A DNA stretch of 64,000 nucleotides from positions 186,001 to 250,000 of the forward strand of contig JAFCMP010000092.1 in the NCBI GenBank assembly GCA_017506865.1, read 5' to 3'. The stretch comes from Tribonema minus (taxonomy: Eukaryota; Sar; Xanthophyceae; Tribonematales; Tribonemataceae). The translations under genes and the position numbers were made by a program. Shown here in pieces: positions 9,055-55,810 of the stretch (positions are counted from its first letter, which is position 1; the number at the start of each line of letters is the position of its first letter). The notes beneath the pieces were generated by a model. It ran no database searches. It saw only the letters and a program-made list of their open reading frames with translations, and had not been told where the DNA came from.

Positions 9055-9491
9055 CTGTGGCCCATGACAGGCATATCATGGACAGTGGAAGTGAGTGCAA
9101 CGTGGAAACAACAAGCGCCATACATAACAGCCTGCGTAAGGCTAAATGTACTTAAATAAGTCACAGTGTTGGTAATAGGTCTTAATAGGAATTGGGGTGG
9201 TAATGGGTTGCGGAGGAGGGTCCCCTGCATGAGGAGCTGGAACCCCGGGGTTATGTGTTGCATTATTTACTGCATTATGTGATTCCACAAGAAATAGCCT
9301 ACAATGCATGTTACACTACCGCATAGTTACTGTCAACTGAGGTTACTATGGTACAAGGTACATCACTAGTGAACTTCAACAATCTTCACGCCGTGGAAAT
9401 CTGTAGGCCGACAAACAACTGCCATGATGGTGTATTTGCCTCACCAAAACGACCTATCGTAGATGATTTCATCTTTGATACATAATGTTGC

Positions 9492-12400
9492 ATGGTCCAC
9501 ACATCGGCAGCCTTCAAGAACACAAGTACACTAGCACCTGATGCATCGACGGCAACAGCTACCACGTCGCTGCCACAGCAGCAACCGGCGTGCACACCCA
9601 TCGGCAACCCCTACGCAAAGGGACCAGCGCACGCGCAGCAGGCACCTGCTGCTCAGGCTGGTAGCAGCAGCTCCTCCGGCAGCTCAAAGAGGCTGGAACG
9701 CGGGGGCAGCAGTGCTACACGAGGGGGTCGGGGTCGCAGTGGAGGGCGCGGACGTGGCAATGGAGGACGCGTTCGCAGCGGCAGCAATGATGCAGACATC
9801 AGCAGTAGCAGAGCGACTAGCGGCAGCAGAACCGGAGGCGGCAGCAGCAGCGGTGCCGGCGGCGGCAGTGCAGCCGGTACTAAGGACAGCGGCGCTGGCA
9901 ACGGCCGCAGCAGTGATGCCAGCAGCCGCAGCGGCGGTGCTAGCAACAGCGGCAGTGGCGCGCGAACTCAAAACGGCCGCGGTGGCCGTGGCAGCGGTCG
10001 CAGCAGCGACAGCGGCGGACGAGGCTGTGGTCGTGGCGGCCGCGGCGGCGGCGGAGGGGGCCCCAGAGCGGCAGGTGCGGCGACAGCAGCGGCAGCGCCA
10101 GGCCCTGCAGGCGCAGCAGGTGGGGCAGGTGGGCTTTTCACGTGGACCATATCAACCCCCGCAGTCGCAGCAGTGCTTGACAGCATCAGCCTCGATGAGC
10201 TGTGCCAGCTGCAGTTCGCGACAACTAGAAGCCTTGCTAGACCACGCAATCGTCGCTATGTGGGAGCTGCACTGGAGAACGCAGCAACACATCTGTTGGC
10301 ACACACAATGACGATGTTCGTCAATGCGGCGCGGGAGCCAGATTCCGCAGGGCGGGTGCAGCGACTGCAAAGATCTACGATTCTACACCACCTCATGCCA
10401 TCACTCATCACCTCCACCGATGGCGCACCTGGCATCACTCGCTCCGACAGAATCAGAATGTTGGCACGCGGTGAGCTTGACCGGTTGGTGCCAGCGCTCC
10501 TCGCACACGCGCGTGCGCACCGGCGCTGGCGCGCGCGCCAGCAAACGGAGGCAGCGATCAACGCCTACGTCCTACAGTGCATGGGCACACGGGGGGGGCT
10601 ACAGCAGGCAGCGCGTTTCCTTCAGCCCAAAACGGTGGCGATACCTGATGATGACTGCTTTGCCGCCATGCAGTCCAAACCACCCCCCGCTGCGCCAGGG
10701 GAACAACTCCATGAGCTATCCGGCATGGTTGATCAGCTTGTGGCGAAAGCAGCCGACATGCCAGCAGAACTCAGCCTGTTACAGGGGGAGGGAATTGAGC
10801 CAGAGACGATTGCCAAGCTCATCCAGCGAGCAAGCCCTTACAGTGGAGCAGGCCCATCGGGGCTGCGCTACAGCCACCTGCAGGATGCGCTACGCACAAG
10901 CTGGGGACGGCATGAGTTTGCTGCTGTCCTCACACGGTGGCTTCAGACCGTTATGCGGGAGGCTGCGCGGCTGCTGGATGCCTTCTGGCAGTTGCATGGC
11001 GCGGGGCGCCTGACGCCACTTGCAGAACAACAGGAAGATGGTACAGCTAAGCAGCGGCCCATCGTTTGCGGCGAGGTGCTGCAGCGACTATGCACTTCGG
11101 TGTACGTGGCAGACCGCAAAGACTTCCTGGCGGAGCTCCTTGAGCCAGACGGGCAGTATGGGGTAGCCGTCTCAGCAGGAGCGGAGAAAGCGGCCATGGC
11201 CGGCAAACTCGCGTATGAGCTCGGTCACTGGCAGTTCATGCTGGACCTCAAGAATGCCTTCAACATGGTGTTCGTCCTGGCGGCAGCGGAATGGGTAGCA
11301 GCACAGGTGCCGGACTTCCTCGACTACTTCATCGGCACATACGTTTGCACTCGGCCACGCCTGCTGTTCCAGCACGTCGACGGCTCCACGCGCATCATCA
11401 TGTCTCAGCGCGGGTTTAAGCAGGGGGACCCCGCGGCACCGATGCTCTTCTGCGGCGCCATTGCTCAGTGCTTGCAACGGTTCAATGAGGCGGCGGCCGC
11501 GCAGCGCGCGCGGAGGCGGATGGGCGCCTACATGGACGATGCCAACGTCCGAACAGGCGCTTGCACGCTGACTCAGGATGACATACAGGCGGTGGCGCAG
11601 CTCAAACAACACTTTGCGGAGGTGGGGCTGGAGCTAAACCTCACCAAGTCACGCGCGCTGGCAGTGCCTGGCAGGGGGCATGTGGTGACAGACCACGAGC
11701 GGCAACTGCTGCAGCAGCTGGGCGTTCAGCTAGTGGGGGATACGGATGAAAATCAGAACCGTGGAGCTGTGTTGCTGGGGGTGCCGGTGGGCCACAGCAG
11801 CTTTGTGGACGCATGGCTGCGCAGGGAAGCGGGTGCAGGCGGGGCAGGGGCTCGATTTGCAGAGCGATGCGCGCGCCTGACATCTCCGAGGGCTATGTTC
11901 AGGTTACTGCGCTACTGCGTGGTGCCTCGCATGACGTACTGCCTGCGCACCATTCCCACTACGCAGACAGCGCCAGCCGCCAAGGAGTGGGATCGGGTCA
12001 CGCAGTGGGTGCTTGAGCACTCAATGGGCCTGCAGCCACCAGGCCAGACCTGGCGCCAGTTTGAGCAAAGTGGGGCCCACTTCCATCTGGCAGCGCACGG
12101 CCCAGCCTTACAGCAAGCGCGACTCCCAACACGGCGTGGCGGCCTTGGCATTACCAGCGCCTGCGACATCGCTGATGCTGCGTATGTGGCGGGCACGTTG
12201 CAAGCGCTGCGACCAGCACTCTCTGGATGGGCGGGGGTGCTGCAGCAGGCGGCTGCTCAAGCGGCTGCAGACAACGCTGCTGAGGATGCGGCAACACAAG
12301 CGGCACCGGCAACAGCGGCAGCAGCACCAGCACCAGCAGCATCAGCAGCGGCAACTGTTACAGCGGCAGCGGCGGTTGCCAGTGGAGGCGCGACCGCTCC

Positions 12401-40157: not shown

Positions 40158-40161
40158 GTAT
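40158..40161. other. Target-site duplication GTAT (left)
   Basis: GTAT precedes the left LTR; GTAT also follows the right LTR at 51320-51323. Confidence 0.7.
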
Positions 40162-40523
40162 TGATCCAAAGGGAAAGGCCTCTGGGTTGCTCCATGAGCA
40201 GGCCAAGCCCTTCTGGGAAACAGGAGCTCACTCTCAGGATGTAGGCTAACCACTTGCATGGAGAAAAGGCCACACACCTGGTCTATCTGTGATGGCTCAG
40301 CTCCAATGAGTCCCTGCTGTCCAGTAGCTGGCTAGCAAGAGTTAGTACCCAAAGCAAGCCACTGAGATGTTGCCCCAGATTGTTCTGTGCAAGTAGTTCC
40401 TGGAACAGTCCAAGCAAATTCCTAGGAACGGCCCTCAGGTGAACTGGCCTGAAGTACACTTGTACAGTACAGTCAAAGGTGTACACAGCACTTAAACTGT
40501 ACTGTGACATGGACTTTGTATCA
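40162..40523 (-). repeat. Ty3 LTR (3' LTR of the element)
   Basis: Read on the plus strand it runs TGATCCAAAG...CTTTGTATCA and matches 50958-51319 with about ten differences. Confidence 0.92.
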
Positions 40524-40540
40524 TCCCTCTTCTTTGAAAG
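40524..40540 (-). promoter_or_regulatory. Polypurine tract
   Basis: On the minus strand, AAAGAAGAGGGA immediately precedes the 3' LTR, as expected for plus-strand DNA priming. Confidence 0.75.
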
Positions 40541-40769: not shown

Positions 40770-41550
40770 TCAACGGCGACGCGGGCGTTTGCGCGGTCCT
40801 AGGTCATTCTGGCCCAACGCAACTTGAGGTTCTATGGGAGTGTGGGGGGTTTCGGGCTGCTCTATGACTTCCTGTGCCAGTAGCAGGTTCCACGAGGAAG
40901 GTTCAGCGTTGCGATCGTCGCGGTAGTACTCTTGGCGGAGCGTCAGGCGCCTCTCCATCGGCTTGTTACCGCGTGTATTGGGGAACTCTACATCAAATAC
41001 GTGCTCCCCGCGCTCACGGTTCGATGAGATGTGCCTCAGCAGTTTGCCACGGCTCCAGCCCGTTGGGAACCTGTAGCGCAGTACTTGCCCGACGTACAGT
41101 GGCCCAAAGTTGGTGGGAACGTGGGGGCACACCGTGACTCGCACGCCTGGGGGCGGGTCAGCCTGCAACATCTGCAACATGCTCAGCAGGGTCAGGCTTG
41201 CCTTGTTCACGCGCCAGCCTGCGTAGCCTGTCTCGCACACCTTCTGTTAGCAACGTCCCCGAGCGTACCTGTGCCGATGTTAGGTCCTCCCAAATTCCAT
41301 CCGTGTAACGCACTCGCCACTTAGATCGCACGAAGTCGCGCACTTGGCCCCAAATGTACTCAGTGGTCTTGGGATCGGCACCTGAAATTTGCCTTACCAC
41401 CTGAGTGCTACAAGGGTAGCGCTTCAACGCTTCGTCTTTGGGTAGTGAGCGGTCCTCACGTGGGCTAGGGCGATCTGCGTACGACGGCATGTGACCTTCG
41501 TGTTGGATCTCATAGAGGGCATGAAAAGTGTCTAGCACCCAGGACGGCAC
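40770..41550 (-). CDS. Ty3 Pol C-terminal extension (frameshifted)
   Basis: Follows the chromodomain in the same frame to ~41235, then shifts frame. The first part is helical with WRVRYTDGIWEDLT. The second part has VGQVLRYRFPTGWSRGKLLR and HVFDVEFPNTRG, followed by a basic end (RKRPRRR) and TGA. The alternation of short strands with aromatic and acidic residues resembles Tudor/Agenet-like modules that bind histone tails, but this is only a pattern match. Together with the chromodomain it may help target integration to particular chromatin. Confidence 0.5.
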
Positions 41551-41661: not shown

Positions 41662-43010
41662 CTATAACCGCTGATCAAGGTCCAGTTCTTTCAGCTGCTC
41701 TGGGTCTACGGCGGCGTGTACTCCTTCGCTGACCAGTCTAGCAGGCCTAGGGTGATATGGCTTCATGTTTTCCACGTGTGCATCAGTGAGCCGCACACGC
41801 ATGCCATTGAATTGACATTGAAATGACAGCCCTGAGTCACCGTAGGGTGCTACTAGCCTCCAGGGTCCGGTGAAGCGCTCCTCCAGGCCACTCGCGCGTC
41901 CTTCAGAGGGTGGCTTTTTGACCCATACATAGTCGCCTACACTTACATGCAGGGTGCGTTGAATCTTGTCGTTACGAGCTTGGATGCGCTCAGCCCTGGA
42001 GCTTAACGCCTCGCCTATGACAGACTCTGCCAGCTTCGAATTCTCTTGTAACCGCTTCACCTCTATGTGCAGATCTGCCGTGCACTCTGGCTTAGAGATG
42101 AGGGCATCTAGGGGGAATCTGGCCTCGCGACCGGAGACACAGAAGAAAGGCGTAAGGCCTGTCTCTTCCCTGGGAGTGTTCCTCAGTGCAAACTGTACGA
42201 TGTCAACTTGTTCGTGCCAACGGTTCTGGTAGTGCGAGCACACTCTGGCCACTGGCAGGGCCCTCTTGACACGACCGTTCAAGTTCTCAGCGGCACTGTT
42301 AGACTGGGGGTGGTATGCGCTAGTCTCTACCTTCTGAACAGCAAAGGCCCGGCAAAGGCTAGTCACCAACGCACTCACAAATTCCTTGGCTCCGTCCGAG
42401 CACAACTCCTCCACCAGTGTGCCACATTCAAGCAGCACCTTCGCAAGCAGGGGAGCTACCTCAGCAGCGGATCTTGTTTTAGTGGGGAAAATCCAGCAAT
42501 AGCCAGACCTGGCTTCCACTATCACGAGTAGGTAGCGGTGCCCCTCAAGAGATATGACTCCTGGCTCAGTGAAGTCTATGTGAAGACGTTGCCACATGCG
42601 CTGAGGGAGCATGAGCACTTGCTTGTATTGAGCTGTCGTCTGAGGGTGGGTCTGTTGGCACGCTATGCAACTGCGCACGTAGTCGCGAATGTCAGCTCCC
42701 ATGCCGCGCCAGTAGAAGTTCTCAAACACCTTGGCGTGCGTGGCGGCGGTCGATGGGTGCTGAGCGCTGCCATCGTCGTGACACATGCGTAGCACCAGGG
42801 GCTTCAGCGCCTCAGGGGTGACCCGCTGTGTGATCAGGGGTCCCCTCTTGGGGCGACTGGCTGCGAAGTGCACCAACAGGCCATCAGGCTCTAGCGTGAC
42901 GAATTCTTGGTTCTGGGGTATGAACTTTGCCAACTTGGCATCAGAAGGTTCATTGCGGTCCTCTAGGTAATTCCTCACAGCCATGCAGAAAGAGTCACGC
43001 CCTTGCCATT
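41662..43010 (-). CDS. Ty3 integrase
   Basis: Zinc-binding HHCC region: HDDGSAQHPSTAATH ... CIACQQTHPQT (~42790-42650). The catalytic triad is visible: Asp in LHIDFTEPG (~42580), Asp in CSDGAKEF (~42395), Glu in NSAAENLNGRVK (~42290), followed by the GPY/F-like FTGPWRLVAPYG (~41870). All catalytic residues are intact. The upstream frame break at ~43010 separates it from RNase H. TAG 41662 separates it from the chromodomain. Confidence 0.85.
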
Positions 43011-45060
43011 GCACAAATATTATCGCGCTCAAGCACTGCGGGCTGACCTGAGCTTCCTCCTGCAAGGTCCCCAGGGTGTTCTGAGGTTCCTGGCGCGGGG
43101 GGTTGAACAGGGCGATCAACTGACATCATGTCTACTTGAAGTTGAGGTTCCTGCTCGCTGCTGCTTTCACAGTTCTCGGTTTCGGTACGCTCACCCGTTT
43201 GCTGTGCCAAGAGTGATGCGCAGCTATCCCACACGCCATCTGGGTACACTCCGGTGCGCAGATTGCAAAGCATTGACGCCAGCGCCAGCTCCTGCAGCTC
43301 CGGCTCCGACTGCTCCAGCTGCTCACCTCCCTCTTCTTTGAAAAGCACGGCGTCCCCACTGCTGCTTTCAAGCGAGGTGTCAAACAAAGCATCTTGCACT
43401 TGTGCGGGGTTAAGTTTGAGCATGGCCTCGCTCAGGTCTGCGGATACCTGTGCGACTTTGTTAAAGCTCATGCCAGGGCCATCTGTGTATGAGGCATAAG
43501 CCCCAATCCTGCCGATATTCGCGGGGGAATCCACGACTTCTTCGCTCTCAAAGCGTACCCCAGTAGGCGGGGCAGGTCCTGCATCCGTACAGTCTGGCCA
43601 CTGCTCATCAGCGTGGTCATACTCTCTGGGGCCCAAGATTTCCGTCATTTGAGGCATTCGTGAGGGGCAGTCTGCAGTGCCATTGTCCTTACCAGGGCAG
43701 TGTACGACCATGATGTCATATTCCTGGGGGCGCATGGCCCAGTGCAGGAGTTTGCTATTATGGTTATTCAGTTTTAGCAACCAGCGCAGTGCTGACGCAT
43801 CTGTAATTACGGTCACTGGCCTACCCCACACGTATGAGCGGAAGTTGTTCAGGGCCAGCACTACAGCAAGGCATTCCAGCGCGGTGGCACCTAGCTTTGC
43901 GTCTTGCACTGAATTGACTTTGCTGTAAAATGCTACAACTTCCTCTCTGGCTGGCTTGCCATCCACCGTCTTGGCACTGCGAGTGTGAGCCCATGGAAAA
44001 TCTTTGTGCCGCTCTCGAAGCTTCTCAAGTGGCACAAACTGGGATAGCACTCCAGCGACTGCCAACTTGCTAGCATCTGTGTGTACTATGAATGGCAAGT
44101 CAAAATCTGGGTGCATGATAACGGGTGCGCTCGACATCGCGCGTTTGAGCTCTGCGAGTGCATCTCGACGGCGTTTATTCCATGTCATGTCAGCACCGTC
44201 TCTGGTACACTCCATCAATGGCGCCGCGATGGACGCAAATCGGTGAGTGTAGCGCCTGTAGTAATTGAAACACCCCATCAAGGCTAGCATGAGACGTTTG
44301 TCAACCTTGCCATCCTTACCGAGCGGGGGCATCATGGCCACCATGGCCTTGATCTTGTCCTCACATGGCCTAATGCCGTACCGGCCGACTTTGTGACTTA
44401 GTAGGTATGTCACTTCCTCGGCGAAGAGTTGACACTTGTGCCTTGACACACTCATGCCATACTCCTCCACGCGACGCAGCACATCGTCCAAGTGAGCTAT
44501 GTGATCTTCAAGCCCTTTGCTGTGAACCAGCACATCATACACATACACGCACGCATGGGTCTGTCTGGCAGCGCCTAACAGCTCGTGCATGCAGCGCGTG
44601 AAAATGCTGGGCAGACATACCAGTCCAAACGGCGCGACCTTCAAGGACCTTGTACTCCCATAGGGAGCCATCGGGCCCCCGGAAAGCCGTCTTGCAAGAA
44701 GACTCTTTGGTCATGGGAAATTGCCTATAGCCTGAGGCAAAGTCCAGAGCTGAGAAAATTCTTGAACTTGCCACCGTTTGAATCAAGTCCTCCATGTTGC
44801 CTAAGCCGTATTCGTCACGTCTTGTGACCTCATTAAGCGGTCTGTAGTCAACACAGAAGCGTATCTTGCCCTTTTGAGCCACCAGCACAGGGTTGCTGGC
44901 CCATGGTCCACTTGCAGGTCTAGTTTGCCCACGCTTCCTTTCGTCCTGAATCGCTTGAAAAATGATTTTGGCCTCGCGCTCGGCCCAACGCCGCGCCTTC
45001 AAGTTGTCGGCTATGGGGGCCGCGTCTCCGGTATCAATGTCCACGTCAAAGCGATCCGTG
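43011..45060 (-). CDS. Ty3 reverse transcriptase and RNase H (frameshifted, active site altered)
   Basis: RT: GPWASNPVLVAQKGKIRFCV, VDYRPLNEVT (~44850), ALDFASGYRQFPM (motif A Asp, ~44740). A frame break at ~44650 follows, where a 10-base CTTGAAGGTC duplication interrupts KV-APFGL. The motif that should read Y-V/I-D-D is YVYDVLVHS at 44534-44542; the first catalytic Asp is Tyr (codon TAT at 44537-44539). RNase H follows with VHTDASKLAVAGVLSQ, ALECLAV and TVITDASALRWLL (~44090-43780). An acidic linker of ~200 residues precedes the integrase. This copy's RT is predicted inactive. Confidence 0.85.
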
Positions 45061-45866: not shown

Positions 45867-46226
45867 CATCCCGTGCTCGTAGGCGATCACGGAGCCGTAC
45901 TTGCCAAAGAAGTTTGACCCTAAGATTGCCTGGTAAGGCAGGTCCACGACGTAGAATCGGTGCGTCAGCAGGTGGTCTTTGAAGCGCGCTTGAGCGTGCA
46001 CCACGCCTTCTACAGGTACCGACTTCTTGGCGTCAGCGAGCTCCACCGTAGTGAAGTCCCCATCAGCCAGAGGGCAGATGGTGCCCGGCGGCAGCTTGTG
46101 CGCTGAATCTTTATTGATGAACTCAGCCTCTGCGCCACCATCCACCAAAGTATCCAGGCCAAACTCTTGCACGGCATCGCCCACCTGTGTGCGCATGGTC
46201 ATGTGCACAAAGCCATTCTTGCGTGG
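45867..46226 (-). CDS. Ty3 aspartic protease
   Basis: Part of the long frame 44535-47291. TLVDGGAEAEFI carries the catalytic Asp; the usual D(S/T)GA is DGGA here. HRFYVVDLPYQAILGSNFFG is the conserved I-L-G block near the end of the domain. It would process the Gag-methyltransferase-Pol precursor. An acidic Ser/Asp-rich linker separates it from the methyltransferase. Confidence 0.75.
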
Positions 46227-46705: not shown

Positions 46706-47617
46706 TGGGCAGAAAGGCAACAGCATGAACGCACTGCATGAGGGCGCTTACAGCCGCGGGCTGTACTAGGTCAGCGGCCCACTTGCGTCTCTGGGTGAGT
46801 GTGCCTTCGGGGTAGGGCTCATGGTAGCCCAGGCACTCCATCACCTGCTCAGGCGAGAGTATCAATGCGTCCTTCGCGGGACCGGCATCCTTGGCTCTCT
46901 GTACGTACCTTGTGGGACCCTTGCCAGGTTGGCGAGTCACAGGGCTAGGTAATGGCATGTCAGTAGAAAGCACGCCAGCACGGTGCGGTTGACGAGGATC
47001 CCAATAAAAGGTGTCCTCCATGCAACCAGTGCAATCGCGCACAGTCTTTGGGGTACTGCTGCGAAAGCGTTCATTCAACAGGGCATTCAGGCGGGCAAAA
47101 AGTGCAGGGGTGGCCTGGGTGTTGCATGCAGACACAGTATAGATGCGCTCGCGCGAACTTCCGCCATCAACATCAGTGCCACGAAATTGCACCTCAAAGG
47201 TCGAATACCCCGCCTGACGCATGTGGCCGTCGGCGCAGCCCCATGCCCCAGACAACAGCATTTGAGGCACATGAAAGACCATGTTGGCCATACATTTACA
47301 GCAAGCTGTGCAACGGAGGGCAACACGCTGGCCGCTTTGCCTTCAACGCCCTTGCCCGAGGGCGAGAAGTCAACACATGGGGCAGTGACCCAGAATGCAT
47401 CGGGTTTCAGCTGCTTTAGGCGCTTGAGCACTGCTGGACTGGCGATGTCTGCACATAGAACTTCTGTGTCAGGGAACTGGTGCTTGTACGCCTCGCATGT
47501 GTATTCGGCCCTATCTACAGCAAGGACCACTTCAACCTTGACACCTGTGTGTCTGGCAAAGTCCTCTAACCCCCTATGTACACCCCCCACCCCGCAACAA
47601 AGCTCTGCCACTCGCAG
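46706..47617 (-). CDS. Cytosine-C5 DNA methyltransferase domain inside the Ty3 element
   Basis: Motifs in canonical order. I: RVAELCCGVGGVHRGLE (AdoMet binding, ~47605). II: VVLAVDRAEYTCEAYKHQFP. III-like: LCADIAS. IV: WVTAPCVDFSPSGKG, with catalytic Cys at ~47377 and the usual PCQ as PCV. Past a frame break near 47295: HVPQMLL in place of ENVPG (VI), and GGSSRERIYTVSACN (VIII, Q/S-R-x-R). A short target-recognition region with a Cys pair follows, then ALILSPEQVMECLGYHEPYP (IX) and AADLVQPAAVSALMQ (X). The domain should transfer methyl from AdoMet to cytosine. It lies between Gag and protease in polyprotein frame. Such captures are known in a few eukaryotic retroelements. Val for Gln in IV and lack of the ENV Glu may affect activity. 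Confidence 0.85.
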
Positions 47618-48217
47618 TGGTCTGGCCGCCACGTCGGGTTCTCCGCCGTGAGCGCACGCATCCCCCTTCCTAGTCTGCAAGTGCACGAAAGTGTCACGGG
47701 GGGTGGCGCACAGATCGGAAGCAAGGTCAGTGAGATCGGCATTCCCACTTACCGCTGTAGACGCCGCGCACGGCACGCTGCGTTTGCGCTTTGCGTCAGC
47801 TCTGGCGTCGGTGTCATGGTCATTGCACCTAGCCACGCAACAGGCGCACATGATAGCTGCTAGCATGCGAGTACCGATCTCACGGCTTAGCAAATGGTTA
47901 CGCGTGCCAGTGACTTCGCAGGCTGCGGGATCAGCCTCTGGGTTCACCTGGGGAGTTGCATCTCAGGCCACTTTGCTAGCCTCTGGGGATGCGCATGCAA
48001 CTTGAACTTGAAGTTTGTGGCAGTGAGCATCGGGACCCGCCTTGGATTGCACACGCGCAGGCTCACGCTCAAGCATGCCACTCATGAAGTTTGCAGAAGA
48101 CTTAGTGTCATAGGACTCACTTTTCTGCTTCTTGTTGCCCCTCAGCTTCTCCAGCCTGGCCTGAAGCTGATCATGCGGCTTCCCTTCCTTCTTGAGCTTC
48201 TCCAGCCGCTTCTTGAG
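47618..48217 (-). CDS. Ty3 Gag-methyltransferase linker
   Basis: The Gag frame continues past TAG 48218-48220 with a clear coiled, basic segment (LKKRLEKLKKEGKPHDQLQA), then a Cys/His-poor spacer, TGA 47963-47965, and a Cys-rich stretch (MCACCVARCNDHDTDARADA) ahead of methyltransferase motif I. The coding look of the segment after TAG shows it was once translated as part of the same protein. Confidence 0.6.
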
Positions 48218-50291
48218 CTAGGGCACGCAGACGCTCTTGTGGGCCGTCAGCTCTCCGCGCGCCACCTCCTTGCTACACCCCCAGCACGCCATTTTCACGG
48301 AAGGGTTGAGCTCCTTCTTGGGAGTGCCCTTTGGCTTAGCGGCAGCTGGCGTGCCCTTGATTGGGGTCGGGGTGATGGCGGCAAGGCTAGACGGCGTCTC
48401 GTCGTCGCTGAGGTCCATGTCGCCGTCGTCCGTGCGTAGGTTGTGAGCTCGCGCCCGCTTGCCGGCGGTGGCGCCGAACTCGACTGCTGCTGCCGTGGCT
48501 GAGTGAAGGCTCTTGATCGCGGTCAGGTTGGCGCAGAACGTCTCCTTCTCAGGCTGCGTGGCGTTGAGGGACGCGTACAGGTCTTGGGTGCGGTCCACCA
48601 TGCGGTTCCAGTCCTCGCGCATCAGCTGCATTTGGTGGAAGAGCTGCTTGAGAGGCTGTGCCATCGCCGCGAAGTAGTAGGACTTGAGCAGGCTGGCGTC
48701 AGCGCAGGACATGTTCGAGGTGCGCTGCGACGCCTTGAGAAGCTTGGTGGGAAACTCGCGGGGGGTCTGCTGCGGCTCCCAGGGCATGTTTGCGAGCTCC
48801 ATCATCGCGTCTGCGCGGCCGCTGGGGTTGTCGTAAAGCTCCTGTATGGCGTCCCATATCTCGTTGTAGGACATCTCCCCGCAGGTATGCACCTTCTCCT
48901 CTCCAGTGACGGGGTCCTTGCGCACGTTGATGATCGAGCCCTGCTGCTCCGCCGTCAGGCACTTGCGCAGCGCGTAGACCCAATGGCGCGTCGGCACGCA
49001 GTTGTACTCTGCAGCTTGTTCAAACTGCCGGCGAGAAGTCGTGGTGGCGCCGACGTCCAGGGTGATTGGGATCGCCGTAGGGCTGAAGTAGCGCTGCTAG
49101 CTAGTGTCTTCGCGCTGAGCGTCGGGGGGCGCGCTGCTGCTGGTGGCGGGTGACGTGCCAACGGTGTCGCTGAGCAGGGGGGGCGCGTTGCCGCTCGCGA
49201 CGCCGTAAGGGCCGCTGGCGCGCGCTCCCATGCCGAACGGAGTAGTGGTCTGTGGGGGCGCGAAGAAAAGGCCCGCGCCGGTGAGGCCGACGCTGGGGTC
49301 CTCTCGAAGGTCGCGCGCGTCCCACTGCGCCGCATCGGCCAGCAGGCGCGGGGCAGTCTCCTGTACGAACTGGTGCAGCGCTGGGGGCCCGGCGCGCTTG
49401 GCCTCCAGCAGGTACTCCTTGATGCGCGTGTAGCGGTGCAGGCGCTCGACGAGCAGGTGGTGGTTACGCGACAGGATCGCCTGCTGCCGTCGCACGACCT
49501 CCTGGCGGTGAGCGTACTCAGCCTCCTGCCCCTGCAGCAGCGAGAGCTGCAGCTGCGAGGGGTTCGCCACAGGGCTGGGGCGGCTGTTACGACGGTCGCG
49601 CTCGACGGCGGCGGCACGCTGCTCGGCGTCCTTGAGCTCGCGCTCGGCCACGTGGCTGCTCTCGAGGGTGGTGTTGATCCAGCGCGCGCTCAAGCTCCTG
49701 GACCGTCGCTTCCAGCTCTGCCGCGGTGGGCACCGCAGTGAGGGAAGGAGGCAGAGTCGAGCGCGTGGCGAAAGGGTCTGGTGCGTGGTAGAAGGGCGCG
49801 AAGCCTGGCGTGAAGGAGGGGTGCGCTGATGAGGCCGGCGGACGAGTGCCGAGGAATGAGACGGGGGACGTCATCTCGGCCGCCTCCTTGACGGCGCGTC
49901 CCGCGAGCTGAGCCAGGGCGCCCTCTGGCATCAGCGGCAGGGCGCGTCGCAGCCCTTGCAGTATCTCGTTGAAGTCCGGTTGAGGAGCGGAGGTCGTAGG
50001 CGGGACGCCAAGACCCGCGCCGGAGGGGTCCGTGGAAGCGGGGAGCGACACCGGTGCAGCTCCGGTTGCGGGGGCGGTGGTGGTCGCCGTCACCGCGACA
50101 GTCGAGGGGGCGGCGCTCTACGCCGCTGATGAGGTAAGACCGGCCGACGACGTGAAGGGTTGCGTCGCCGGCTGCTGCTCGGGGGGCACGAGCGCTTGCT
50201 GCTGCACACCGCCACCGTTCCCTTCGCCTCCCGGGGCCGTTCCAGCCTCCCCGGAGCTGTCCGTCGCCGATCTTGATACGCTATCCGCCAT
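48218..50291 (-). CDS. Ty3 Gag (interrupted)
   Basis: ATG at 50291 starts a Pro/Ala/Ser-rich N-terminus, broken by TAG 50118-50120. A frame break at ~49690 lies between two halves of a coiled coil (ELERALDQ / SSHVAERELKDAEQR). A second coiled region (RQEVVRRQQAILSRNHHLLV) is followed by TAG 49097-49099, then a capsid-like helical domain (WVYALRKCLTAEQQG, YNEIWDAIQELYDNPSGRAD, MPWEPQQTPREFPTKLLKAS). It ends in a Cys/His finger, CWGCSKEVARGELTAHKSVC, and TAG 48218-48220. Spacing of the finger differs from the retroviral CX2CX4HX4C knuckle. Confidence 0.75.
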
Positions 50292-50957
50292 GATTCTCCT
50301 TATGTACTCCCGTTACGCTTGTTGCAGGTCGCTCTGCATGGCACAGCAATGACAACATGTCCCGTGCATACGTACGTCAGGCAGGCTCTCGCCCCTCGGA
50401 TACAGCATGTTTGACATGATTGCCAAGACACTGCCCATGATTAAATCCAGCTGTCAACACCCCCTCTTTGCAGAAGACGCTGAATCTGCAGTGGGTGTAT
50501 TGCTGGGCCTGCATCGGCTATGTAAAATGCCTAGCAGTCAGGGCTGGGTAGCAACGACGTTCCCGGCGTCGTTCAGGCCTGTACGCAGCAGTGTGATCAG
50601 TACTACTGCGTGCCTTCCTTGTCATGAGGACTACCGCTGTAGCACCCGTTCGACAGCGTCCAGTCGTAAGCGGGTTGAGCGCTCATGCGATGGTGCTACG
50701 AGCATGCATGTCGCGGCTCCAGGTGCAACGTTCTGGGCTCGGCCCTTGATGGCCGCGTTGCATGCCATGCAGATCTGAGTTATTCCGTTGCAAACACTGT
50801 GCCGCTACTCGTCGGGCTAAGCGCAGTAGCAAGCCTGGCATGGTAGTGTGCAACTCATCAATGCAACTTCTCTGGGAGGACGTCACGTTGGGTATACGGC
50901 GCGCTAAAAGTGATTCCGCGCTACGCTGGTGTTGTCCCGAGAGTTGGAGCTGAGCCA
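50292..50957 (-). promoter_or_regulatory. Ty3 untranslated leader with primer-binding site
   Basis: TGGCTCAGCTCCAACTCTCGG (minus strand) directly abuts the 5' LTR and has the TGG start of a tRNA primer site. The remaining ~640 bases to the gag ATG have no supported frame. Confidence 0.6.
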
Positions 50958-51319
50958 TGATCCAAAGGGAAAGGCCTCTGGGTTGCTCCATGAGCAGGCC
51001 AAGCCCTTCTGGGAAACAGGAGCTCACTCTCAGGATGTAGGCTAACCACTTGCATGGAGAAAAGGCCACACACCTGGTGTGTTTGTGATGGCTCAGCTCC
51101 AATAAGTCCCTGCTGTCCAGCAGCTGGCTAGCAAGAGTTAGTAGCTAAAGCAAGCCACTGAGGTGCTGCCCCAGATTGTTCTGTGCAAGTAGTTCCTGGA
51201 ACAGTCCAAGCAAATTCCTAGGAACGGCCCTCAGGTGAACTGGCCTGAAGTACACTTGTACAGTACAGTCAAAGGTGTACACAGCACTTGAACTGTACTG
51301 TGACATGGACTTTGTATCA
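50958..51319 (-). repeat. Ty3 LTR (5' LTR of the element)
   Basis: Direct repeat of 40162-40523, with the same TGAT...ATCA ends; followed on the plus strand by GTAT. The element's promoter should lie inside. Confidence 0.92.
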
Positions 51320-54300
51320 GTATGATGGCGTTGCCATATGGTATATACAATGCAAATGCATTCAAGTTGATCTCACTGATGTGTGACGTGGCACGCTAGC
51401 GGGCCGGGCTCTAGACTGAGCCTCTGAGTGTGACACTGGCAGTACTCAATTCAGATTCAGATTCTGAATCTGAAGATTTTTGTCAAATTGAATCATGCTG
51501 ATGCGTTCACTCAGTTCAAGCTGTGAGCTTCAAGTTCTGAACCTGGTCCACCCAGTAGTACTGTCACACTTTTAAATTAGAACATTGACCTCAACCGTGA
51601 GCTTTTGCAGAGATGCACCTCCAAGTTGAAGTTTTGAATATGCCCCAATCATGTTTTTCGCCAAATTGAATATCGCCATGTGGCATTCAATGTGGCAATC
51701 TTCAAAACTGGTACCTGCACCTCATAACCTAGGTACACAGTTGTCAGTGACTCGGAGGGCCTCACACACAGTCATCATATTAACAATTGACTCAGAAATG
51801 CCGCATGCCGGCGGCCGCAGCCAACACTGGCATGGTTCACTTTGGCAGCTGAAATAAATGAATATTGCAAAAAACGGGACCTGTGTTACTAGTACAGTAT
51901 TGCGGTATTGCGAATTTTTAGTAGTGTGGGTTTAAAAGGTGGAAAAAAGGGGGAAAAAAGTGGGGAAAAAAGAGCGGAAAAAGAGGAGAGTTCGGCTACT
52001 ATGTAGTATAATTCGCTGCCGCCGCCGGGGGTACTCGCCGCGCGCAGCGCGGCTTCAGGCCTATCGTCAGTATACTTATAAGATTTGTCAGCGTCTGGTG
52101 TGCAGACTCATACAGACATGCGACACAGCACATGTGGCAGCCGCTGCAAGGGCACAGCTGCAGAATCGTACGTGCAAGCAGCACTAACTTGAACTTCAAT
52201 CTGCCATATTACTAAAAGTATGTCACCACATCATGATGTGTCCGCACTGGTGAGAATCCATGGCCGTACTACGAACTTCAAGCGTTTGCGCACAAAATCT
52301 CAGACTGAGTCAGTAAGATGTGCACTTGGAGTAACATACAATACATACTCAGGCTGCATACTATGAACGATGCAATTGCTAACAAGAGCGATCAATGTAT
52401 GTGCAGACACAGACTCTCGGAATCCTGCTCGACTTTAGGGCAATTGACATTTGGGCAACGTTAAACTTTGAGGTTTACACCCCCCTGCATGGCCCCTACC
52501 AGTAGCACCTCCGCGCCGTTGCTCAGAGACCAGGTGTCCACATGTTGTGGGTTCTGATAAACAAAACATGCAATGCAGATTCAGCGCTTGCTGCACTATC
52601 ATAGCAAGTGCACCTTGCAAGCCAACATGCACCCCAAGAGCAAGCCATTGGCAAGCAGTGCAGCAGTCAGTGCCACAGTGCTCCGCCGCCCCAAACAAAC
52701 AAACTTGCGCGCCGCGCAGCGCCCCTCAACTTGAAGCCACCGGGCATGCCAGTGGTAGGCTGTGACACACTCAAATGCCGCGAAGTGTATGTGTGCCACC
52801 GCCGCTGCCAGCTGCCTGCACGCAATGCGTGTGCGCGTTGCATCCAGATGTCATAGGCAGCGCTGCAAACGTGCGCGCCGCCACGTGATCATCATGATGC
52901 CTCATCGCTTCACGTTGAATGGGCGTAGTACTAGTAATACACTAATGCAAATTACACCGAGCTGTACTGCATGACACATTGTGCCGCAGCGCAGCAACGC
53001 TTACTAATAGTATGATCACCGCCACCAGCTGAGAGAACCCACAAGCCGCAACGTACTTCCAAGTATGACATTCAATTGCCACCGGCATCCATGGGCGGCA
53101 GCAAGGCTGCATCAACAGTGACTTCGGAAGACTAAGGCACTCTCGCTGGCTGCCAGTGCTTTTAAGGTGGTAAATTTAGTGCGCACCACGGGCTCCGTAA
53201 ATATTAACACTAGTATACTTGTACTAGTACTATAGCCATGCTAATGCGCTTCGCCGCCGGCTTCAATGGGCGGCAGCACGCGTTCGCGCCGCCAGCTGCA
53301 TCATGATATGATAGTCATGTGTGTTTGAGTTGACGCCAGCGCAGACGGCGCAGCATCACAGCAGAGAACATCCTAAACATTGAGCACCAGTACTGCCGCA
53401 GCGGTGCAAGAAGCTGCGGTGAAATGCAATACAGCATGAGCACAACCTACAATCTTGTCGGGAGTAGATGGTCCACTTGTTCACGATTTGTGGCCTATGA
53501 TGATCTCTACAGCAATGTGCTAGCATCACACCCATCAGCAGGCCCGGACTGCCCGCTTTGCTTTCTGGTTTTGTGACCTTTGGATGATGTTTGGGCTCAA
53601 GACAGTGGCGGCTTCCTTGGACCTTGTTCTGTTCAAAGCATGCAGCATATACAACAAGAAAACCACACCGCAACTCTTGATGATGAACGTTTCGAATTCC
53701 CATTGTGGCCAGCCTTTGGCAGCACCAAGAACCTTGAATCCCACACACACACAACGCTTGCATTTTTCCTTCTCCACACCCATTGGGCACCAACACCCCA
53801 GCCTGCCCCCGAAGCAGCACAGGCTACCACAACAACCCCCGTCCTTCAGTTAGATAAACCACACACAATGTGAATTCCCCTGCCGCCACGTGGGCTGCTT
53901 TTGCATGCATCCCACGGCTTCAACAAACTCTCCAAACCTGCCGTTGGCTCACCACCCACTCCCTGAGAAACGTCACGCTGTCTCTGCAGCTGCAGTGGTG
54001 GGCCTTATTGTCTCACCACGCCTGAGCACTTTAATTTCGTCGGCGGTCTGCTTCGGGCACATGGCAGTGGTAAATAAGCTCACACAACCATGGTGCCCCC
54101 CCCCCCCCCCCCCTCCCCCCCCAGCTTAGCAATGTTTGATCAAGACCCCTTCATCTTTCCTTCCCTCACTCGCCCCCCCCCCCCCCCCCCCCCCCAAAAC
54201 CCGCACCACCTTCCCAATTCACCAGCACAACAGAGACGTCGTGAATGCCACCACCACTTCATAATGAAAGCGGTAGAGCGTACATGCGCTGTGTCCAAAT

Positions 54301-54478: not shown

Positions 54479-54707
54479 CTAGCTGCAGCGTTCCGCGATG
54501 GGCACGTCAAGGCTGCGATACACCTGCGGAGGCGTGGCCGTCTGAGCATCACCATCTGCAGCATCCATCGCGTCTTCCGCCGCATCAGAGTTGATGGTGT
54601 CTAAAGGAGCGTGAACGGGTTGCATGGCGCGTGGCGATGCGACAGGCTCCAGGCCGTAGGCGTGGCATGTCTCAGCGGCTGCCACTGGCGACGCGCCTGC
54701 AGAGGGC
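54479..54707 (-). CDS. Coiled-coil gene, last exon
   Basis: Acceptor ATCTTCCAG precedes 54707. One base completes the Lys codon left in phase 2 by the exon at 55834, then 76 codons run to TAG 54479-54481. It encodes an acidic, Ala/Pro-rich tail (AAETCHAYGLEPVASPRAMQ, TINSDAAEDAMDAADGDAQT). The phase match supports the model, but no domain is recognised. Confidence 0.5.
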
Positions 54708-55810
54708 CTGGAAGATGACAAGAGGGGCGTTTTCCAGAGTCAGTGACGTTAAAATGCGTGGTGCTCGCGCAGCTGATGCGGCAGAGCAGCGACTAGCCAA
54801 GAGCAGAACCTGATCTCAATGAACGAGGCTTGGCTCCTCGTTTCGGCTCCCGGGCCGCAATTGAGCGCACAAAAGCTACAGTCTGCGTTCATGTACATGG
54901 GCAGGGCAGGCCCATGATGCAAATGTTGGTATATCCAAGAACTCAGAGCCATGAAGTTTCGCTACATGGTCATTTTTTGCGCTATAAGATGTGGTGGCAG
55001 AGAGAGTATTGCACAAGGTGCGTGCACATCTACGGCACTGTTCATGAGGCGTCTAAACCCGGTCATACCAGCATAGGTGATGTGCTTCTCACAAAATTGT
55101 GGGAAACCCGCAGCAACAGATACCGACGTGCATGCAATTGCCTATAACTTCCCCTCAACTGAGCAGTGCCGCACAGTTGATAAGTAACACAGTGCAAATT
55201 GTGCAATTGGTACAATTCCTCAGCATGACAAGGCCGTAGGCGTGGCATGTCTCAGCGGCTGCCACTGGCGACGCGCCTGCAGAGGGCCTGGAAGACGACA
55301 AGAGGGGCGTTTTCAGAGTCAGTGACGTTAGAATGCGTGGTGCTCGTGCAGCTGATGCGGCAGAGCAGCGACTACAGCCAAGAGCAGAACCTGATCTCAA
55401 TGAACGAGGCTTGGCTCCTCGTTTCGGCTCCCGGGCCGCAATTGAGCGCACAAAAGCTGCAGTCTGCGTTCATGTACATGGGCAGGGCAGGCCCATGATG
55501 CAAATGTTGGTATATCCAAGAACTCAGAGCCATGAAGTTTCGCTACATGGTCATTTTTTGCTCTATAAGATGTGGTGGCAGAGAGAGTATTGCACAAGGT
55601 GCGTGCACATCTACGGCACTGTTCATGAGGCGTCTAAACCCGGTCATACCAGCATAGGTGATGTGCTTCTCACAAAGTTGTGTGAAACCCGCAGCAACAG
55701 ATACCGATGTGCATGCAATTGCCCATAACTTCCCCTCAACTGAGCAGTGCCGCACAGTTGATGAGTAACACAGTGCAAATCGTGCAATTGGTACAATTCC
55801 TCAGCATGAC
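54651..55810. repeat. 580-bp tandem duplication over the last intron/exon junction
   Basis: Copies 54651-55230 and 55231-55810 are nearly identical. Each contains the acceptor and first ~55 bases of the last exon of the coiled-coil gene, so the gene now has an extra, upstream copy of that acceptor at ~55287. The duplicated exon start runs into non-exon sequence after ~55231. Confidence 0.9.

Follow-up and report, generated by a model that had tools for sequence, protein, structure and literature searches.

Cytosine methyltransferases borne by retroelements have been published from dinoflagellates, in long interspersed nuclear elements (LINEs) and DIRS elements, and from the charophyte Klebsormidium, in a gypsy element (PMC5890265). 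The closest described system, KnitGypsy-Dnmt3 of Klebsormidium nitens (de Mendoza et al. 2018, PMC5890265), is reported to carry a DNMT3-type domain with conserved key residues in the Pol polyprotein of a Ty3/gypsy element with a DIRS-like repeat arrangement. Here, we describe a window of 64,000 nucleotides from Tribonema minus (contig JAFCMP010000092.1, positions 186,001 to 250,000), a yellow-green alga of the Xanthophyceae (PX clade, Stramenopiles), which holds a Ty3/gypsy long terminal repeat (LTR) element at 51319 to 40162 on the minus strand. The element is almost certainly a dead copy of a T. minus retrotransposon family whose Gag-Pol polyprotein includes a complete C5-cytosine methyltransferase. 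As in KnitGypsy-Dnmt3, for which Ka/Ks is below 0.2 (PMC5890265), the enzyme forms part of what a Ty3/gypsy element encodes, retains its key residues, and is under purifying selection. In contrast, the T. minus elements have ordinary LTRs, a putative Tudor-like tail, a stramenopile host, no DNMT3 match among solved sequences, and the methyltransferase at three different polyprotein positions.

SymbioDIRS-Dnmt3 and SymbioLINE-Dnmt of dinoflagellates are likewise retroelement-borne cytosine methyltransferases present in very many copies, but they belong to other retroelement classes, the DIRS enzyme being of DNMT3 type and the LINE enzyme of an orphan class; the DIRS enzymes were reported to methylate CG de novo in yeast (PMC5890265). 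DIRS elements with Dam-type methylases also carry a retroelement-borne DNA methylase (PMC5890265, PMC6338049), but these are tyrosine-recombinase elements and their enzymes are adenine methylases, described as structurally unrelated (PMC5890265). Gypsy-10_Ec32 of Ectocarpus, which we liken to the T. minus family by its description, is a Ty3/gypsy element with a C-terminal Tudor domain and one T. minus homologue; the accessible part of its account mentions no methyltransferase for it (PMC12477816). DNMT3s carried by LTR and DIRS elements are mentioned for streptophytes and dinoflagellates in a 2025 survey (PMC12344493). According to an opinion piece, gypsy and DIRS elements that encode Dam and Dcm enzymes occur in stramenopiles, in charophytes, and in red and green algae; the kind per group is unstated in the accessible text, which could cover relatives of the T. 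minus family (PMC6338049). No such element is reported in the accessible parts of PMC9998398, PMC11244446, and PMC12459048, and a search of titles and abstracts, with subscription papers, preprints, and Repbase outside it, returned no paper on cytosine methyltransferases in gypsy elements of xanthophytes or other ochrophytes. We regard as new that the host is a stramenopile, that the domain has no match to DNMT3, and that it occurs at three positions; a retroelement-borne cytosine methyltransferase as such is already known.

The element and its methyltransferase domain

An earlier note on this DNA had placed a C5 methyltransferase at 46706..47617 within a complete LTR element, and the domain is confirmed. 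The N-terminal half (frame 47087-47962, minus strand) matches PF00145 (E = 3e-10; 40.5 bits, with the cut-off at 22; profile positions 2 to 105 of 324). The C-terminal half, in another frame, has no PF00145 match by itself; it shares 96% identity over 198 amino acids (aa) with the corresponding domain of an intact copy. Motifs I (47582-47614), IV (47348-47395), VIII (47133-47159), IX (46923-46949), and X (46749-46781) were located in order on one strand, flanked by the Gag finger and the protease site, as the note had stated. The motif names and numbers used here (I, IV, VI, VIII, IX, and X) are those that we take to apply.

The claim of a complete element holds for its layout and fails for its coding capacity. 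The two LTRs are identical at 352 of 362 positions and have TG...CA ends, and GTAT flanks the element on either side. A Pfam search of the window found reverse transcriptase (RT), RNase H, and integrase in the order expected for Ty3/gypsy. Paired LTRs, a target-site repeat, and the order protease-RT-RNase H-integrase are all present, the order being seen by Pfam in the copies L061 and L064 and, from RT to integrase, in the window. All parts are there, with their frames broken: gag, methyltransferase, and RT are each spread over different frames and methyltransferase motif VI is damaged, so the window copy itself yields no enzyme. The parts of the element, in window coordinates, are as follows.

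51320..51323, no strand: GTAT, the right-hand 4-bp target-site repeat (flank reading)
50958..51319, minus strand: 5' LTR, 362 bp (LTR comparison and ends)
50940..50957, minus strand: candidate primer-binding site, starting TGG and adjoining the 5' LTR (by eye)
50244..50291, minus strand: start of the Gag-Pol polyprotein (same start in T. minus protein P0020)
48227..48292, minus strand: Gag C2HC finger (by motif; no Pfam match)
46706..47617, minus strand: C5-cytosine methyltransferase domain, in two frames in the window copy (PF00145, motifs, intact copies)
46116..46154, minus strand: aspartic protease active-site region (motif; Pfam protease match in relatives L064, P0017, and P0018)
44402..44873, minus strand: reverse transcriptase, in two frames (Pfam)
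43718..44107, minus strand: RNase H (Pfam)
42307..42816, minus strand: integrase, H2C2 zinc finger and core (Pfam)
41266..41358, minus strand: Tudor-like stretch in the C-terminal tail, under the Pfam cut-off (profile search; same family in relative P0017)
40524..40535, minus strand: purine-rich tract preceding the 3' LTR (by eye)
40162..40523, minus strand: 3' LTR, 362 bp (LTR comparison and ends)
40158..40161, no strand: GTAT, the left-hand 4-bp target-site repeat (flank reading)

The chromodomain named in the earlier note was not recovered. Neither the window tail nor L061 positions 9174-9998 gave a Chromo match in Pfam, a search that a degenerate chromodomain could escape. A Tudor-like family, PF21743, was matched instead, under the cut-off in both the environmental protein P0017 (E = 0.0074) and the window (E = 0.048), and was not matched in L061 9174-9998 or in P0018. 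These matches bring to mind the gypsy element with a Tudor domain that has been described from T. minus (PMC12477816). A PDB search with the polyprotein tail gave no lead.

Intact copies and scale in the genome

The searched genome comprises 158 Mb in 554 contigs. A DNA search with a 1,261-bp region returned 41 matches, including the window itself: 19 further copies of the window family at 96 to 97% identity (17 spanning the whole query and two nearly all of it), 18 sister-subfamily matches at 66 to 67%, and three short pieces. In 17 of the 19 family copies the 314-aa domain is uninterrupted and includes motifs IV, VI, and VIII. The segment therefore recurs, mostly with intact frames, and a local chimera or assembly artefact, which the broken frames of the window copy might suggest, has next to no probability; we reject it on the 19 copies, the sister subfamilies, and the environmental polyproteins described below.

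Open frames at copies of this family reach 3,165, 3,176, and 3,501 aa. The L061 stretch, 10 kb long, has an open frame from position 927 to its end, and this frame encodes, in order, the Gag finger (residue 678), methyltransferase (904), protease motif (1393), RT, RNase H, and integrase. At one copy (G000:C311:3907-7305) the reported open frame spans 6,208 aa, double what is usual, and may represent two elements joined head to tail. A T. minus database protein, P0020 (JKP88DRAFT_354395), shares blocks of 207/208 and 113/113 identical residues with the L061 polyprotein, which places the searched genome in T. minus or a nearly identical strain. Its public gene model, that of P0020, holds gapped retroelement pieces, as if spliced, preceding EGF-like domains; in spliced-looking models of this kind the methyltransferase would be hidden from protein-based surveys.

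PF00145 gave 123 scored matches among 378 candidates in the genome. One DNA search, three protein searches, and four PF00145 places together locate at least 260 distinct methyltransferase places, fragments counted. By domain similarity, at least 176 are of the Gag type, at least 71 of the protease-RT type, and at least 14 of the RNase H-integrase type, with one place falling in two types; polyprotein position itself was read in the fetched copies. Among the matches listed, 123 of 149 RT places related to L061 have a Gag-type methyltransferase 1.5 to 5.5 kb upstream on the same strand.

Three polyprotein positions

In the copies read, the methyltransferase lies between Gag and protease (L061, L063, and L064), between protease and RT, or between RNase H and integrase. 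The second order was read in L062, with the protease motif at residue 625, the methyltransferase at 867-1179, and RT at 1753. In L071 and L072, the end of RNase H (profile positions 63-103 and 69-105 of 105) directly precedes the domain, and in L071 the stretch past the domain aligns with the run-up of the L061 integrase. RT identity between L062 and L061 is 34.5%, so the two represent distant gypsy lineages.

The first two positions were also seen in environmental contigs and proteins. P0017 (3,241 aa) and P0018 (3,112 aa) carry methyltransferase, protease, RT, RNase H, and integrase in order, and P0019 (1,769 aa) carries a finger, methyltransferase, RT, and RNase H. In P0001 (543 aa), the methyltransferase domain is followed by the beginning of a protease-like stretch, whereas in P0003 (556 aa) the protease motif comes first, as in the protease-methyltransferase-RT type. 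P0016 and the intact domain of the window family share 99.7% identity. Within the Gag type, RT and methyltransferase identities fall in the same rank order (A-B, 91 and 63%; A-P0017, 77 and 45%; A-C, 61 and 34%), which fits a domain travelling with its element.

Conservation and relationships of the domain

The domain is under purifying selection and its catalytic residues are conserved. Other copies also exceed the PF00145 cut-off of 22 bits (L061, 60.7; L062, 67.1; L063, 55.5; L064, 63.8; L071, 63.1; L072, 59.0), and the motif IV catalytic cysteine, motif VI ENV, and motif VIII RxR are invariant in 11 of 11 intact representatives. The ratio of nonsynonymous to synonymous substitution rates (dN/dS) is 0.13 to 0.43 in seven subfamily pairs, a set that leaves out one out-of-frame pair and one pair without coordinates. 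The predicted fold of a relative resembles HhaI and DNMT1, the top rows of the structure comparison being the DNA enzymes 3g7u and HhaI. The family profile matches 53 solved sequences, including DNMT2, bacterial enzymes, DNMT1, and DNMT5, none of them named DNMT3; DNMT3 is likewise missing from the 50 rows listed by the VIA-align structure comparison, an absence that excludes nothing.

The phylogeny called for in the earlier note was realized in part: two trees were built with bacterial enzymes, DNMT2, and the retroelement domains. The second tree omits K_L017, P0012, and P0015, and neither holds P0002, P0004, P0005, P0006, P0009, P0016, L003, or most near-identical copies. In both, DNMT2 and a host DNMT2-like gene pair, apart from the retroelement domains. 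With DNMT1, 3, 4, 5, and 6 outside the trees, two donor scenarios are possible, namely, one capture followed by exchange among elements, or several captures out of one unsampled host gene. The DNMT2-like sequence, an exon at L004 (G000:C523:358815-359333) that pairs with human DNMT2, is probably a host tRNA methyltransferase.

CpG substitutions and the proposed role of the enzyme

Relative to L061 as reference, the window copy shows C-to-T or G-to-A changes at 46 of 1,446 CpG positions and at 59 of 4,401 others (odds ratio, 2.4; P = 2e-5); in the opposite direction, L061 versus the window copy, the difference is slight (26 of 1,402 versus 64 of 4,574). Across 18 copy pairs, which share references and are not independent, transitions occur at 499 of 13,764 CpG versus 230 of 15,772 GpC positions (odds ratio, 2.5), and 15 of the 18 pairs agree. 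This excess is an indirect hint that fits CpG methylation of the elements and names no enzyme.

Since the L061 domain shares one open frame with Gag and Pol, packaging is expected. The enzyme would be made in step with Gag and enter the particle, where the protease would free it. Once the cDNA is double-stranded, the enzyme would be close by and may methylate it, the newly inserted copy, or both, probably at CpG sites. If a maintenance enzyme of the host then copied the mark, fresh copies would bear the signature of resident DNA from the moment they enter the genome. The Tudor-like tail might contribute to the choice of insertion sites. T. minus reportedly encodes DNMT5, HELLS, a putative CDCA7, and a DNMT4-like protein and is exceptional in lacking DNMT1 (PMC10538959); the accessible text makes no mention of DNMT3 in this alga. 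Maintenance of element-written marks by this DNMT5 system is thus plausible. We consider the whole chain, from packaging through methylation of cDNA or new insertions to upkeep of the mark by a host enzyme, to have an even chance of being correct.

Several observations weigh against this interpretation or temper the results above. Transversions are likewise raised at CpG (odds ratio, 1.6), less than transitions; the CpG excess is absent in 3 of the 18 pairs, all of low divergence; and there is no gross CpG depletion, with observed/expected ratios of 0.81 to 0.94 in the elements and 0.74 to 0.96 in the rest of the window. The excess could also stem from host enzymes or mutation bias. Among the matches listed, 26 of the 149 RT places, individually unread, have no methyltransferase 1.5 to 5.5 kb upstream (one, on contig C28, has one about 6.2 kb upstream). 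L071 has a stop codon between the methyltransferase and the integrase start, the proteases of L061, L062, L018, and P0003 were recognized by motif without a Pfam match, and dN/dS rises to 0.54 in a pair with a decayed-looking copy. K_L017, a row of the further methyltransferase type described below, groups among the retroelement domains in the first tree via an open fork. The best solved sequence for the family profile is DNMT2 (2.8e-24, versus 3.7e-19 for HaeIII), which is also best for the window family alone. Finally, the Klebsormidium gypsy enzyme had no detectable activity in yeast, a result that its authors called inconclusive (PMC5890265).

The similarity to DNMT2, a tRNA methyltransferase, might suggest that the enzyme targets RNA rather than DNA, either the element RNA or the tRNA primer in the particle, as was considered for the LINE enzyme by de Mendoza et al. 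(PMC5890265). We think this unlikely, because both trees keep DNMT2 and the host DNMT2-like gene away from the retroelement domains, the top structural rows are DNA enzymes, and the domain also sits at places other than Gag. It is also unlikely that the enzyme acts mainly in trans, changing the methylation of the host's chromatin, of competing elements, or of invading viruses in a way that serves the element or its host; the high copy number would suit such a role, as would methyltransferase genes of another kind in what we take to be virus-like surroundings (L001), but nothing in the analysis shows it and a domain inside Gag-Pol is positioned for action within the particle. Transposon methylases have been proposed to serve in antiviral defence (PMC6338049).

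Very little probability attaches to a domain that has lost its enzymatic function and is retained in Gag-Pol for binding nucleic acid. The window copy lacks a working domain and some motifs deviate from the textbook form (AN-V-P versus GN-V in the presumed motif X), but invariant catalytic residues and dN/dS well under 1 argue for an enzyme. Methylation of the element's own cDNA or insertions remains our preferred reading. A stramenopile case at such scale, under selection, in three gypsy positions, and with a domain to which no solved DNMT3 corresponds, suggests that methyltransferase capture is recurrent and modular. That an element should itself write a silencing mark is counterintuitive, and elements may write marks that hosts use against them.

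A bolder proposal, which we find doubtful, is that in T. minus, with DNMT5 and no DNMT1 reported, de novo CpG methylation comes largely or wholly from retrotransposons: a mobile methyltransferase module would have passed among distant gypsy lineages to three Gag-Pol positions, and host maintenance would perpetuate the self-written marks. If so, de novo methylation would be a trait of the parasite and not of the host. A host with DNMT5 maintenance makes it testable where new methylation originates when the usual enzymes are few.

Other methyltransferases and a tandem duplication

A further methyltransferase type (VADLCAGIGGF...GPPCTDFT) occurs in repeated copies with long open frames at L014, L016, L017, and L073, with no retroelement domain in the stretch read. 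The genome's best PF00145 matches, L001 (1405-2574), L002 (1459-2559), and L003, are open frames of about 370 to 390 aa of another kind, outside any gypsy polyprotein in the stretch read; L001 is adjoined by a kinase-like frame on the other strand. These three presumably resemble endogenous giant-virus genes. Within the window, positions 54651-55675 hold a tandem duplication whose copies lie about 580 bp apart, in pieces of 300, 84, and 65 bp at 95 to 99% identity.
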